From the NCBI GenBank assembly GCA_945915475.1, contig CAMEFI010000006.1, positions 1 to 64,000 of the forward strand: DNA of 64,000 nucleotides, read 5' to 3'. Origin of the DNA: an uncultured Clostridium sp. (GTDB taxonomy: Bacteria > Bacillota > Clostridia > Lachnospirales > Lachnospiraceae). A program made the position numbers and the translations under genes. The notes beneath the pieces were generated by a model, which did not search any database, was not told the DNA's origin, and saw nothing but the letters and a program-made list of their open reading frames with translations. This document shows, one piece after another, positions 49,036-55,203 of this stretch (positions are counted from its first letter, which is position 1; each line of letters starts with the position of its first letter).

Positions 49036-49800
49036 TTATCCCATTAATATCTCAAAATACTTGCCTAAATGTTTCTTCATCTTTTCAAGCGCCTTTGAAT
49101 GTAATTGAGAAATACGCGACTCCGAAACTTCTAACACCTTCGCCACCTCTTTTAAAGTAAGATCTTCGTAATAATATAATAACACAACTTTGCGTTCCTT
49201 CTCCGTCAATAATTCCAATGCATCCATAAGCATTTTTTTAACCTCTTCACGGTTAACAGCCTCTTCCGGCTCAATATATGTTGTATTACGAAATTCTCTT
49301 ACACCGTTATCATTTCCCTGTTCCATAAACTCATCTAAGGATGCAACATTCGAAATATTCGTAAGGCTCTCCCAACTACGATATTCATCTAAGCTGATTC
49401 CAAGTTCCTGTGCAATATCCTTATCTTTTACATTTGCACCCTTTTCTTTTTCAAGTTTTGCAATCACGCTTTCCATCTGTTTCTGTTTCTGTCTGACAGA
49501 ACGGGGAATCCAGTCCATCTTTCGGATCTGATCCAATATGGAGCCTCGTATACGCAGACTCGCATACGTTTCAAATTTGATACCTTTCCCATAATCAAAC
49601 TTATCAATAGCATCAATGAGTCCAAAAATTCCATAACTAACTAAATCATCATATTCAACTGTATATCCTAAATACATATTCAAACGACCGGCAACCAGCT
49701 TCACCAAAGGAACATATTCCACAATAATCTGTTCTCTCAGTTTCTCTGACTTTGTCTTTATGTATTCTTCCCACAACTTATTTCTTTTGGTCTCATCCAT
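49036..49800 (-). CDS. fliA: Flagellar sigma factor FliA/SigD (sigma-28)
   Basis: Directs RNA polymerase to late flagellar and chemotaxis genes. Region 2 includes YVPLVKLVAGRL and YDDLVSYGIFGLIDAIDKFDY near residues 28-70; region 3 follows; region 4 has LKEVAKVLEVSESRISQLHSKAL near 219-241. Length of 254 (ATG with GGGG eight bases upstream; track GTG is three codons early) is as in B. subtilis SigD. I see no sigma-28-type promoter within this window, so its targets (flagellin, hook-cap genes, methyl-accepting proteins) are presumably elsewhere. Anti-sigma FlgM is not in the window. Confidence 0.95.
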   Translation of the reverse strand: MDETKRNKLWEEYIKTKSEKLREQIIVEYVPLVKLVAGRLNMYLGYTVEYDDLVSYGIFGLIDAIDKFDYGKGIKFETYASLRIRGSILDQIRKMDWIPRSVRQKQKQMESVIAKLEKEKGANVKDKDIAQELGISLDEYRSWESLTNISNVASLDEFMEQGNDNGVREFRNTTYIEPEEAVNREEVKKMLMDALELLTEKERKVVLLYYYEDLTLKEVAKVLEVSESRISQLHSKALEKMKKHLGKYFEILMG

Positions 49801-49848
49801 CGTAAACACCCCAGTACTCCATGATACCAGTTATCTAACTACAACTGA

Positions 49849-50161: not shown

Positions 50162-50647
50162 CTATATTACCTTCTCGCCTTTTCCTGCACTTCGGATTGT
50201 TAACTTTTTCGTCACATTGTCAAACACAATCGTTCTACCGTAATCAGCACCTGTATCCTCGGCGACGATGGGAATCTTTAATTCAGAAAGCACTTCCTTC
50301 ACTGACTTCACATTACGTTCTCCAACACTTGCCAAATCTGTCTTGGATGAAAACTGGAACATTGCAGCTCCCCCAGCAATCTTAGCAGAAAGAAATGACT
50401 TTTTCACACCCTTTTCCTCTAATGCATGCAGCAGATCTTCAATCCCAGTGTCAGCAAATTTTGCACGATTTGCATTATTCTTAATTTCTTTACTTGACGG
50501 TAGCATTATATGAACCATACCGCAATATTCATCTTTCAGTGTATATAACACAATTCCAACACAAGAGCCTAACCCAATTGTTGTAATGGTGTCGGGATTC
50601 TTACATATCTTCCAATCAGCAATTCCAACTTTGATTATCTCTGCCAT
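50162..50647 (-). CDS. cheD: Chemoreceptor glutamine deamidase CheD
   Basis: Deamidates receptor Gln residues and stimulates CheC. The catalytic Cys, His and Thr context is present: GLGSCVGIVLY near residues 26-36 and GMVHIMLPS near 43-51, with a Thr nearby; FGGRIFGG-like region appears as AKIAGGAAMFQF near 89-100. Length of 161 is typical. It is directly after cheC, so the Bacillus-type CheC/CheD adaptation system is complete. Confidence 0.95.
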   Translation of the reverse strand: MAEIIKVGIADWKICKNPDTITTIGLGSCVGIVLYTLKDEYCGMVHIMLPSSKEIKNNANRAKFADTGIEDLLHALEEKGVKKSFLSAKIAGGAAMFQFSSKTDLASVGERNVKSVKEVLSELKIPIVAEDTGADYGRTIVFDNVTKKLTIRSAGKGEKVI

Positions 50648-50651
50648 AACT

Positions 50652-51266
50652 TCACCCGATTCCTAATGCCTGAAAAATGTGTTCATAGGACATCTCATCC
50701 GTCACAAAAAGCAGAAAACCATTGATTGGTCTTTGATTATCTAAGAACTTGGAATCAATAATAAGCGCTTTATCACCGATCTGTCCCAGTTCACTAATAG
50801 GAAGACTCAGCACTGATCCTGCCATATCTACACAAATAGCAGGTGGTGCTATGGTTAACTTCAGATTTGTCAATGTACTGATGGATGAAATATAAGAACT
50901 CATCAGAATATTACCAATCTCCTTCAGTGCAGACTTATCCATATGATCAAATTCAACAAAATCATCACCATAAGTCTTACCAAGCATAGTCCCGGCAAGA
51001 TTCTTTGCTTCTTCTAACTCTAAAACAAACAATGTCATGCCACTGACTTCACCTGTAAAATGCGTAAGTACTGCTGCAACAATGGTATCCGGACCACCAA
51101 TCATATCTGCTATCCCATCAAAACTGAGAATCTTCACAACCGGAACTTCTACTCTCAATCCAGAATTCAACATAACAGACAGCGCAGTTGTTGCATTTCC
51201 TGCCCCAATATTCCCAATTTCTCTCAAAACATCCAGCTTCATACTGGTCAATTCCTGATTCTCCAT
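50652..51266 (-). CDS. cheC: CheY-P phosphatase CheC
   Basis: Removes phosphate from CheY-P in Gram-positive chemotaxis. Two active-site repeats are seen: LREIGNIGAGNATTAL near residues 13-28 and LKEIGNILMSSYISSIS near 113-129, each with Glu and Asn (second Asn present). Length of 204 is normal. It is between cheW and cheD. The same fold recurs in FliY, encoded at the window's right end. Confidence 0.95.
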   Translation of the reverse strand: MENQELTSMKLDVLREIGNIGAGNATTALSVMLNSGLRVEVPVVKILSFDGIADMIGGPDTIVAAVLTHFTGEVSGMTLFVLELEEAKNLAGTMLGKTYGDDFVEFDHMDKSALKEIGNILMSSYISSISTLTNLKLTIAPPAICVDMAGSVLSLPISELGQIGDKALIIDSKFLDNQRPINGFLLFVTDEMSYEHIFQALGIG

Positions 51267-51274
51267 CTAATCAC

Positions 51275-51724
51275 CTATGCATTATCCAAATCTTGAATGA
51301 TACCTTGAATGTTCAACAAAGAAATTAATGTATCATTGTATTTACCAACACCTATCAGATTGCTTCCCTGCTCATCATAAACCGCTTTTTCAATATTCTC
51401 TTCTTCGAGAGTAACCACCTCTCGTACCTCATCAACCAACACACCAATCTTTGCATTGCTTTCCGGCTTCAAAATGATAATTCTTGTTGCATTCGTATAT
51501 TCCTTATCAGGCAAATCGAACTTTGTTCTAAGACACATAACCGGAATAATCTCACCACGAAGATTAATCACCCCTGCAAAATAAGACTGTGCCTTTGGAA
51601 CTCTTGTAATCTGTTGCATCCGGACAATATTATCAATATATGAAATATCAATTCCGTACTGCTCATTGTCTAGTTTCACAACAATGTACTGCTTTACATC
51701 ATTTACGACTGTATTCTCTTCCAT
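51275..51724 (-). CDS. cheW: Chemotaxis coupling protein CheW
   Basis: Links receptors to CheA. The 149-residue protein is a single CheW domain with INLRGEIIPVMCLRTKF near residues 48-64 and VGVLVDEV-like IGVLVDEVREVVTL near 92-105. AAGGAGG lies before the ATG. It is between cheA and cheC. Confidence 0.95.
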   Translation of the reverse strand: MEENTVVNDVKQYIVVKLDNEQYGIDISYIDNIVRMQQITRVPKAQSYFAGVINLRGEIIPVMCLRTKFDLPDKEYTNATRIIILKPESNAKIGVLVDEVREVVTLEEENIEKAVYDEQGSNLIGVGKYNDTLISLLNIQGIIQDLDNA

Positions 51725-51736
51725 GAAAACCCCTCC

Positions 51737-53785
51737 TTATACTAATGCATTCGAATCAATAATCAATGCTACTTCTCCATCACCTAAGATAGTCGCACCA
51801 CTAATCATTCTATGAATATTAATATATTTACCAAGTGGCTTGATTACAATTTCCTGCTGACCAAGTAAATTGTCAATAACAAGTCCTGTCTGTTTATCAC
51901 CCTTCTTCACGATGACAACGATCAGGTTCTCCTGTTCTTCTTCCTGTTGCGGACAATCCAACACTTCATCTAAACGAACAAGCGGTATTACCATTCCCCG
52001 CAGATTAATTACTTCTTTCTGCTGAACATATTTGATATCATCTATTGATACATCTTCAATTGTAACAATAGAATTCAAAGGTATCGCATATTTCTCCTGT
52101 CTGACTTCTACCATCAATGCCTGAATGATTGCAAGCGTTAATGGAAGACGTACTGTAAATTTGGTTCCTTCTCCCAGCTTTGTGGATACCTCCACATCAC
52201 CGCCTAATCCCTCAATCTTATTCTTAACAACATCAAGGCCAACACCACGACCGGATACGTCAGTGATTTTCTCCGATGTAGAAAATGCCGGGCGAAACAG
52301 CAAATCAATAGCCTCTTTCTCCGTCATCATCTCTGCCTGTTCTTCCGTAATCGTCCCCTTCTTAACAGCAGAAGCCTTAACTTTCTCCACATCAATACCT
52401 GCACCGTCATCAATAACTTCAATGGTTACATTATTACCATCCTGATAAGCATTCAACTGAATCGTTCCAACCTGCGGTTTACCAAGCTTCAATCGTTCAA
52501 TTGTCGGTTCTAATCCGTGGTCAGCGGAATTTCTTAACATATGCATCAACGGATCTCCGATTTCATCAATAACCGTACGGTCAAGTTCTGTATCTTCACC
52601 TGTCATAATCAGTTCCATCTCTTTCCCGAGCTTCTTAGACAGGTCACGGATCATTCTTGGGAAACGGTTCACAACACTCTCAATTGGAACCATTCGAACC
52701 TTCATAACAGACTCATGCAAATTCGTTGTAATTCGCTCAAGATATTCAATCTGTTCATTAAAACTTTGCATGGAAGTCTTGCCATCTTCCTGATTGCTGA
52801 CAGAAACCAATCCATTCTTTGCAATAATCAACTCACTCACTAAGTTCATCAAAACATCTAATTTTTCAATATCTACACGAACGGAACGATTAGCAACCGG
52901 CTTAGCTGCCTTAGCCGGTGCAGCCTTTTTCTTTTTGCTCTCCTCTTTTTCCGGCTCCTTTTCTTCTTTTTGAACAGAACTTACAACGTTAGCATCACTT
53001 GGAATCTCATAATTCTCAATCACAACTTCTTTAATCTCTGATACATTCGATATAATTTTCTTAATTTCTTCTAAAGATTTCTCAGAAATGATCAGCATTG
53101 AAAAATCAAAATCAAATTTCTCATCTTCGATATCCTGTACCCCTGGCACAGATTTGATAATCTCGCCGGCATTCTCTAATCCCTTGAATACAAGAAATGC
53201 TCTCGCCGCCTTCAAAATACAATTTTCATCAATATATACGGTTACCCCATACACATTAAGATTCTTGGCCTTAGCTTCTGTAATGGCATTTTTCTCAAAA
53301 TCAGCAATATCAATATGTAAAAATTTGCGTTTATCCCCATCTTCTGCAGACTTTTCTTCTTTCTTCTCTTCTTTTGCTGCCGGAGCAGATTCCGGAGCCC
53401 CTTCTGCATTGAGACAGGCATTCAACATATTGATCAGCTCTTCATTATCATTCTCGCCTTCATCCGAAGTGTTGATGATACAATCCAGATACTCCTCTAT
53501 TGCATCCAGACACTTAAACACAATATCAACCAAATCCGGTGTTACACTCATCTTCCCATTACGGATCTCTGAAAACACATTCTCCATATCATGGGTTAAC
53601 CGTTGCATTCTCTTAAATCCCATGGTACCTGCCATACCTTTTAAAGAATGTGCTGCACGGAAAATTTCATTAATGGTATCGATGTTATCCGGTTCCGCCT
53701 CTAATACAAGTACCTGATCGTTCAAGTTCTGCAAGTGTTCCTTTGTTTCATCAATAAACATCTCTAGATATTGACTTAAATCCAT
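51737..53785 (-). CDS. cheA: Chemotaxis histidine kinase CheA
   Basis: Receptor-controlled kinase that phosphorylates CheY. Order: P1 Hpt domain with the phospho-accepting His in AAHSLKGMAGTMGF near residue 46; a P2-like CheY-binding region (about 150-260); Lys/Glu/Ala-rich linker (about 275-300); P3 dimerisation; P4 kinase with HMLRNSADHG (N box), DDGAGID (G1) and GRGVGLDVV (G2); and a CheW-like P5 at the end. Length of 682 is normal. The 50-base N-terminal Hpt is intact and no receiver domain is attached. Confidence 0.97.
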   Translation of the reverse strand: MDLSQYLEMFIDETKEHLQNLNDQVLVLEAEPDNIDTINEIFRAAHSLKGMAGTMGFKRMQRLTHDMENVFSEIRNGKMSVTPDLVDIVFKCLDAIEEYLDCIINTSDEGENDNEELINMLNACLNAEGAPESAPAAKEEKKEEKSAEDGDKRKFLHIDIADFEKNAITEAKAKNLNVYGVTVYIDENCILKAARAFLVFKGLENAGEIIKSVPGVQDIEDEKFDFDFSMLIISEKSLEEIKKIISNVSEIKEVVIENYEIPSDANVVSSVQKEEKEPEKEESKKKKAAPAKAAKPVANRSVRVDIEKLDVLMNLVSELIIAKNGLVSVSNQEDGKTSMQSFNEQIEYLERITTNLHESVMKVRMVPIESVVNRFPRMIRDLSKKLGKEMELIMTGEDTELDRTVIDEIGDPLMHMLRNSADHGLEPTIERLKLGKPQVGTIQLNAYQDGNNVTIEVIDDGAGIDVEKVKASAVKKGTITEEQAEMMTEKEAIDLLFRPAFSTSEKITDVSGRGVGLDVVKNKIEGLGGDVEVSTKLGEGTKFTVRLPLTLAIIQALMVEVRQEKYAIPLNSIVTIEDVSIDDIKYVQQKEVINLRGMVIPLVRLDEVLDCPQQEEEQENLIVVIVKKGDKQTGLVIDNLLGQQEIVIKPLGKYINIHRMISGATILGDGEVALIIDSNALV

Positions 53786-53786
53786 C

Positions 53787-54383
53787 TTAACGCACCCCCG
53801 TTTTTTTCATTATTTCATGTCCAATATCATCTAATGGAAGTACCGCATCTGCAAGTCCATTCTCAACAATTGCTTTCGGCATTCCATATACAACACAAGA
53901 TTCTTTCTCCTGTGCAATTGTGTAAATATGCTTGTTCTTTTTTAGCTCTTTCACTCCCTGGTATCCATCTGCACCCATTCCTGTCAATACAACACAGACA
54001 ACAAAGTCTAATGAAACTTCATTCAGACTTTGAAACGTAATATTTGCACAAGGTCTCAATCCATTAACCGGATCTTTCTCATTCTCGCAAAATGTGAGAT
54101 TCCCTTTTCGATCCTGTACAATTTCTAAATGTTTGCCGCCTTTTGCAAGATAGACATGACCTTTTTTAAGCGGTTCTCCGTTTACGACTTCACTAACAGG
54201 TATATTGCTTCTACTGTTCAATCTGTCTGCCAATGTATTGGTAAATCCTTTCGGCATATGCTGTACAATTACAACCGGTGCATCCAGATCAGCCGAAAGT
54301 TCTGGAATGACTCTATGAAGTGCCTTCGGTCCACCTGTAGAGCTGGCAATCACAACAAGTTTTCTGTTTCCGCTGCCTGCCAT
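53787..54383 (-). CDS. CheB-type methylesterase domain protein lacking the receiver domain
   Basis: Hydrolyses receptor glutamyl methyl esters. The 198 residues are just the catalytic domain: Ser in ASSTGGPKAL near residue 14, His in VQHMPKG near 42, and Asp in LTGMGADG near 138. Standard CheB has about 150 more N-terminal residues forming a CheY-like receiver; none is encoded in the 88 bases upstream, where the PilZ gene ends. It is therefore a complete single-domain protein, not a window artefact or visible frameshift. The ATG of MAGSGN has GAGGTG six bases upstream and is preferred to the track start. Activity should not depend on phosphorylation by CheA; it may be regulated another way. 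Confidence 0.88.
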   Translation of the reverse strand: MAGSGNRKLVVIASSTGGPKALHRVIPELSADLDAPVVIVQHMPKGFTNTLADRLNSRSNIPVSEVVNGEPLKKGHVYLAKGGKHLEIVQDRKGNLTFCENEKDPVNGLRPCANITFQSLNEVSLDFVVCVVLTGMGADGYQGVKELKKNKHIYTIAQEKESCVVYGMPKAIVENGLADAVLPLDDIGHEIMKKTGVR

Positions 54384-54420
54384 AAGTTTCACCTCATATA
54401 CTTCCATACTTTATATTCTC

Positions 54421-54449
54421 ATTATACCAAATTCATTTCTACACATAAG
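54421..54449 (-). promoter_or_regulatory. Possible internal promoter before cheB
   Basis: TATAAT on the minus strand with a poor -35 (CTTATG at 17 bases, or TTATGT at 16). The 88-base gap between the PilZ gene and cheB is the longest in this part of the operon, which supports a possible internal promoter. Confidence 0.3.
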
Positions 54450-54471
54450 TGCATAGTAATATTTTTATAAA

Positions 54472-55203
54472 TTATTCCATCCCCATTTCTTTCATTCGGT
54501 TCTTACGCTGAATTTCAAAAATAAAACGAATAATCCTTTCTCTCATTGCACGATCCATCCGATAAAACTGTACTCTTTGTTCATAAATCCGGTTATTGTT
54601 CTGATTCTGAACAGACAACAATAAGTTTGCTAATGTAAAGATAACCTCAGAATTCTCTTCTGTTTCCAGATCGAATTTAAGCTCTATCAGATTCCCCACC
54701 TGTTCTTTGGAAGGAGATACAAACCGCATTCCACCACCACTGATATCTAAAGTAATACCATTTTTCCATTCTATTTCCATTTCATCAGAATTATAAGCCT
54801 TTCCTTCTTCTATATAACGTTGTTCCACTTCTCCAAGCACTCGATATTGTATGGGAATTCTACGCTCTAATCGGTAATACTCTCTCCGCTGTATCTTTTC
54901 CAAAGGACTTCTGTTCTCAATCTCCAATAAAAAGAGTTGACCTTTTTTATATCGTCCGGTCACCACCACCTTACATGCAAGCAGACCGCTCTTTGTATAT
55001 ATTGTCGCCTCAAATTCCTGATTGACTCCAAGCGGAACAATCGTTCCACCCTGTATCGGCATGGAAACCAGCATTCTACCATTCACCATTTCATCCAAAA
55101 CCTGGCTTACATAAACTTTTGGTTTCTCCTCAGCATTGACATAAAGTCTTTTTTCAATTTTCTTTAATTCTAACTTATCTCCAATTTGAATTCGTTCATC
55201 CAT
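54472..55203 (-). CDS. PilZ-domain protein, YcgR-type flagellar brake
   Basis: N-terminal YcgR-like domain (about 1-95) and C-terminal PilZ domain (about 100-230). Both cyclic-di-GMP binding motifs are present: RREYYRLERR (R-x-x-x-R, near residues 108-117) and DISGGGMRF (D-x-S-x-x-G, near 154-162). Cyclic-di-GMP-bound YcgR-type proteins slow the flagellar motor. Its place inside the flagellar operon, between flhG and cheB, supports that role. No start problem: GTAAGAG lies just before the ATG, though the site is not strong. Confidence 0.88.
   Translation of the reverse strand: MDERIQIGDKLELKKIEKRLYVNAEEKPKVYVSQVLDEMVNGRMLVSMPIQGGTIVPLGVNQEFEATIYTKSGLLACKVVVTGRYKKGQLFLLEIENRSPLEKIQRREYYRLERRIPIQYRVLGEVEQRYIEEGKAYNSDEMEIEWKNGITLDISGGGMRFVSPSKEQVGNLIELKFDLETEENSEVIFTLANLLLSVQNQNNNRIYEQRVQFYRMDRAMRERIIRFIFEIQRKNRMKEMGME

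Follow-up and report, generated by a model that had tools for sequence, protein, structure and literature searches.

The window analysed here, the whole 64,000-nucleotide stretch of DNA under study, comes from a Lachnospiraceae genome (draft, 97.9% complete, 81 contigs). Its chemotaxis genes lie on the reverse strand in the order cheB-cheA-cheW-cheC-cheD, and the most distal gene of the cluster encodes a sigma factor. Read in the direction of transcription, the features are:

54472 to 55203, reverse strand: PilZ/YcgR-like gene, upstream of the element (Pfam PilZNR and PilZ)
54421 to 54459, reverse strand: element TTACTATGCACTTATGTGTAG-N9-TGGTATAAT, read as a non-coding remnant of the receiver 5' end and a probable extended -10 promoter (conservation; dual coding in relatives)
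54421 to 54426, reverse strand: TATAAT, -10-like, with TG at 54428-54429 (invariant in 20 of 20 loci of the genus)
54390 to 54395, reverse strand: GAGGTG, probable ribosome binding site of cheB (sequence reading; GAGGTG or GGGGTG at the same place in most members of the genus)
53787 to 54383, reverse strand: cheB, methylesterase domain only, 198 aa, start ATG at 54383-54381 (Pfam, PDB, ribosome binding site, start region conserved in the genus)
51737 to 53785, reverse strand: cheA, with Hpt (P1), P2, dimerisation, ATPase and CheW domains (Pfam)
51275 to 51724, reverse strand: cheW (Pfam)
50652 to 51266, reverse strand: cheC, with two CheC motifs (Pfam)
50162 to 50647, reverse strand: cheD (Pfam)
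49036 to 49809, reverse strand: sigD/fliA-like sigma factor (open reading frame, named by sequence and position; ortholog at the same place in relatives)

The same order, with cheBAWCD after pilZ and fliA last, has been published for the Lachnospiraceae flgB-fliA locus; the passages of that paper on cheB and the promoter mention no promoter inside cheB (PMC3720852). A second full-length CheB was sought in the window's genome, as the sequence-only reading had proposed, and a single PF01339 match was obtained, giving one CheB beside one CheR. The genome also encodes one CheA, two CheW, ten MCP signalling domains and one CheW-receiver fusion (CheV; the CheV search covered this genome only). A second CheY-like single-domain receiver was noted outside the fla/che cluster, beside a 334-aa protein (G000:C24:39504-39920; L176:3005-3421).

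The cheB gene and the loss of its receiver

The longest open cheB frame, from the open reading frame listing and the PF01339 search of the genome itself, runs from 54407 to 53787 (about 206-207 aa). The start at 54383, giving 198 aa, is better supported than 54407, since GAGGTG precedes this ATG and a stop codon lies just 5' in relatives. CheB_methylest (PF01339) is the sole Pfam domain of the 198-aa protein and is complete (1-174 of 174, E 9e-62); no Response_reg match, and thus no receiver with a phospho-acceptor Asp, was found in it. The PDB search gave the catalytic domain of a CheB as the nearest solved structure (3sft, E 8e-45), and NCBIfam models of full-length CheB matched with their C-terminal half alone, below the cut-off (234.8 of 293 bits). 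The Ser-His-Asp triad motifs SSTGG, QHMP and LTGMGADG are intact here and in all 19 relatives of the genus examined, and dN/dS values of 0.04-0.16 point to purifying selection. These results support the view that the window's CheB is a genuine receiver-less enzyme, competent-looking in its catalytic residues and under purifying selection. The sequence-only reading had described a methylesterase domain with its catalytic Ser, His and Asp and with receiver and linker missing, and this description is borne out. Typical CheB (PF01339; structures 1a2o and 3sft) shares with it the complete catalytic domain, the triad motifs and an operon with cheA, cheW, cheC and cheD, but also carries the N-terminal receiver, linker and phosphorylation site that are missing here.

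All 22 undamaged operonic cheB copies of the genus (26 genomes) have frames of about 200-216 aa and no receiver. The syntenic gene of the wider family, in the order flhF-flhG-pilZ-cheB-cheA-cheW-cheC-cheD-sigD, is 357-434 aa long with an N-terminal receiver. In trees of concatenated neighbour genes, 20 receiver-less members of the genus group with full support as a single clade that sits within receiver-bearing relatives, and the receiver is intact in the nearest row outside this clade (L129). Judged from these comparisons, receiver loss in the genus is real and old. That an assembly or frameshift artefact conceals a receiver is hardly conceivable even for a draft of 81 contigs: the identical architecture recurs in 22 genomes of the genus, many of them independent assemblies whose agreement excludes assembly error, and the gap 5' of cheB is far below receiver size. 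The survey of orthologues, which the sequence-only reading had expected to expose such an error if the receiver were in frame in close relatives, found in-frame receivers outside the genus only.

The same reading had held that a separate gene encoding the CheB receiver would overturn it. No stand-alone CheB-type receiver gene was found in the window's genome with a CheB-receiver HMM, and a receiver split off as a separate gene was rejected, because the best receivers of the genome, the operon CheY (86 bits) and a CheY-like protein (76 bits), score below the CheB receiver of the nearest outside relative (104 bits). A short CheB isoform from a conserved internal start in full-length relatives was likewise discarded, with a candidate start in only 6 of 60. 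The seeming absence of the receiver in L117 was treated as an artefact: 288 nt of the locus precede the match, and the receiver is present in a close sister. The short CheBs of G063, G102, G203 and G291 (198-226 aa) lie in different chemosensory clusters.

Several departures from the common pattern were observed. Some members of the genus have an additional full-length CheB outside the fla/che cluster; those of L008, L009, L010 and L020/L023 (loci L182-L185) are isolated, cluster with other Lachnospiraceae CheBs and do not carry the full DNA element described below, and their sequences suggest horizontal re-acquisition of a receiver-bearing CheB. A separate Lachnospiraceae clade (L089, L094, L106, L119, L126, L140) has kept the CheB receiver with the phospho-acceptor Asp replaced by Asn or Glu; in four of its members the receiver Lys is also replaced, by His or Arg, and the DNA element is largely kept. 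This clade represents a second route to losing phospho-control of CheB. In L040 a non-operonic CheB has a receiver without key residues, including the phospho-acceptor Asp and Lys. In G020 (L029) and G233 (L056), in or near the genus, the CheB catalytic domain lies within open frames of about 1270 aa, possibly CheB-CheR fusion proteins.

A conserved element that is part of cheB in relatives

The element begins about 11 nt downstream of the pilZ stop codon (gap measured in the window). In the pilZ-cheB gap of all 20 genus loci compared it consists of TTAYTATRCACTTATGTGNAG, 8 or 9 bases, TG, one base and TATAAT. Its pairwise identity within the genus is 93-97%, against 30-40% for the flanks, a value near random for the local composition. 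In genomes with full-length CheB the site lies inside cheB and encodes the first conserved receiver peptide, DDSALMRRV.(C/S)DII; an example of the coding form is GAT GAC TCT GCA CTC ATG AGA AGG ... TGT GAT ATA AT. The window's element aligns position by position with this coding sequence, and the spacing to TATAAT agrees within one base. Since the site encodes receiver peptide in relatives, the window's copy is an untranslated remnant of the receiver coding stretch, contrary to the statement of the sequence-only reading that no remnant lies upstream.

A pattern search for the element matched 100 of 299 Lachnospiraceae genomes, almost always at one site each, with no matches to a backwards control pattern; an order-wide search gave one stray match outside the family. 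The full element is present in 57 of 60 operonic cheB genes and in none of the 32 non-operonic ones. TATTAT replaces TATAAT in L092 and L099, and the element is absent from L137, which has a different gene context.

Codon choice was measured against the usage of each genome in a set of 55 dereplicated, full-length operonic cheB genes; a protein-based search had supplied the set, which is hence unselected for the motif. Ser is encoded by TCT in 55 of 55 genes (7.8 expected, z 18) and Ile by ATA in 53 of 55 (12.5 expected, z 14); Ala is GCA in all 55, Leu is CTY, and Arg is AGA in 54. Over the codons SALMR and I of DSALMR..CDI the synonymous constraint reaches z 10-18, against a background of mean 2.3 and sd 1.8 over 1450 conserved columns. 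The cheA ribosome binding site within the 3' end of cheB was recovered as a positive control. In six operonic CheBs (L041, L085, L088, L101, L109, L120) the Asp codon has changed to Gly or Ala and the DNA TG.TATAAT is kept; where this codon has changed, conservation is stronger for the DNA than for the protein. At column 501 of the cheA alignment (R of KVRMVP), CGA is also strongly preferred in the family (35 observed, 3 expected); this preference was rejected as an element, there being no obvious contiguous constrained stretch around it.

The constrained codons lie about 7-20 codons past the start, as they would under a translation-initiation constraint (low structure or a codon ramp) with no DNA element, but this explanation can be virtually dismissed: it is refuted by persistence of the sequence where it is untranslated, particular codons are fixed rather than a general A+T richness, and the non-operonic CheBs of L008, L009 and L010 encode a near-identical peptide with free codons.

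The element has also survived without its coding role in other lineages. Catalytic-only CheBs occur in G172/L098, where a related site lies 5' of the gene or right at its beginning, and in G653 (L273), where TTACTATGCACTTATGAGTAG...TGTGGTATAAT lies 5' of it. In G117 (L261) cheB has been lost, with no CheB match in the genome, and ATTACTTTGCACTTATGAGAAGGG...TGGTATAAT lies between pilZ and cheA; cheA, cheW, cheC and cheD follow in the usual order. In the tree these lineages stand on branches separate from the window's genus, several of them being long branches of unsure placement. L273 falls near the genus, where parsimony does not distinguish two losses from one loss followed by a regain. Before the box, the non-coding lineages all have TTACT in place of the GAYTCT of the coding version. 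With excess synonymous constraint and survival after loss of coding both found in these alignments, the element is best described as a dual-coded DNA signal.

Probable promoter activity of the element and control of CheB

The sequence of the element suggests a promoter, and a regulated one. TG-N-TATAAT, an extended -10 motif, is as invariant in the genus as noted above and is present in the same 57 of 60 full-length operonic genes. No -35 hexamer TTGACA was found, a CTTATG-like sequence occupying that position. An extended -10 promoter can dispense with a -35. In at least 7 of the 20 genus loci a strong intrinsic terminator follows pilZ ahead of the element, and G653 has a hairpin with a T-run there. 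Given these, transcription of cheB and the genes behind it would need a start at or near the element in those species. In the window itself no terminator separates pilZ from the element, and transcripts from upstream could therefore read through. A promoter and terminator scan of the window gave about as many promoter-like sites as shuffled sequence, and the element was not among the sites listed.

We consider it probable that cheB was reduced to its methylesterase/deamidase domain, that receiver and linker were mostly lost in the ancestor of the genus, and that about 40 bp were kept for a function at the DNA level, most likely as a promoter. On this account the ancestor would have lost roughly 130-150 codons of receiver and linker from the cheB of the fla/che cluster, and the 40 bp of receiver 5' coding sequence would have been retained because of their second function. 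The retained DNA, the extended -10 with its conserved upstream box, would drive cheB-cheA-cheW-cheC-cheD-sigD as a housekeeping-type promoter pointing toward cheB and sigD, with the box covering roughly -25 to -45.

The stretch might instead act as RNA, as a processing site, an sRNA target or a translational control. We regard this as improbable. It would suit the position of the stretch, which in the non-coding cases lies a short way 5' of the translated region, and no DNA-binding partner is known for the box 5' of TATAAT; against it stand the invariant TG and TATAAT, which have the form of an extended -10, the 8 or 9 nt from the box to TG, the terminator a short distance upstream in several loci, and the lack of any Rfam match for the element. 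No small open reading frame is conserved over it either: such a frame was considered and rejected, as the frames vary among relatives and in some of them a TGA follows the ATG of the box immediately.

It is also unlikely that the locus holds a plain receiver-less CheB, constitutive or controlled by dosage, with an ordinary new promoter unrelated to the receiver. Receiver-less CheB is already known from Campylobacter: the C. jejuni CheB, without a response regulator domain, is a methylesterase domain alone (PMC340952, PMC2147049), so that the enzyme part is the same in kind. What disfavours this explanation is the element, which aligns with the receiver coding DNA of relatives at matching spacing, is frozen at synonymous sites in those relatives and is kept in other lineages that lost the coding.

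A wider form of the promoter reading is one that we hold tentatively, seeing rather more room for doubt than for confidence. The element would be a family-wide, dedicated regulatory promoter for cheA to sigD inside the cheB receiver, with a regulator binding TTACTnTGCACTYATG; it would have constrained receiver evolution and outlived the receiver in several lineages, and control of CheB would have passed from phosphorylation to transcription. A palindromic operator was rejected as a general feature, its CAC..GTG symmetry being limited to the window's genus, with ATGAG elsewhere.

In the absence of the receiver, CheA-phosphate cannot directly control the window's CheB, and the enzyme is presumably active without phosphorylation. 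CheB output would depend on the amount of CheB and the state of the receptors, global feedback via CheA would be lost, and CheR, CheC/CheD and CheV would remain in the pathway. The sequence-only reading had placed CheC and CheD two genes away and had adaptation control shift to them. Both are present, behind cheA and cheW, but the shift lacks support: relatives whose CheB is full-length have them in the same position, and their presence is therefore no evidence of compensation.

Known systems resemble this one in part. The C. jejuni CheB, like the window's, which is likewise the sole CheB of its genome, consists of the methylesterase domain alone; C. jejuni belongs to another phylum and its CheA has a fused CheY-like domain, which the window's CheA lacks, whereas the window's genus has CheC/CheD alongside and a remnant of receiver DNA. 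The isolated CheB catalytic domain of E. coli has the same domain content, and its network adapts precisely with bimodal kinase activity; that construct is engineered, and the bimodality is expected to impair chemotaxis (PMC5809149). Regulator binding and internal promoters within bacterial coding regions are a general phenomenon (PMC9600179). These intragenic promoters and the B. subtilis fla/che promoters PA and PD3 (PMC3874003) likewise place promoter-like sequence in a gene or a motility operon with sigD distal. PA and PD3 lie upstream of their operon, whereas the Lachnospiraceae element is dual-coded within cheB; unlike both, it is conserved throughout the family at synonymous positions and persists after the coding sequence has gone. 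As far as the literature was searched, the dual-coded cheB element, its family-wide conservation and its survival after loss of receiver or gene are new.

What CheB phosphorylation does in B. subtilis has been described as unknown (PMC340952). The genus offers a clade-wide natural replacement with receiver-less CheB in a CheC/CheD/CheV-type pathway, with the states before and after defined, and comparison with close relatives makes the purpose of CheB phosphorylation in Firmicutes testable. The larger point is a conserved, dual-coded DNA signal that occupies the same place across a large gut-commensal family and is so positioned that it could set expression from cheA to sigD. From it one would expect a transcription start, and probably a regulator of motility, that have so far gone unrecognised in organisms such as relatives of Roseburia and Agathobacter.
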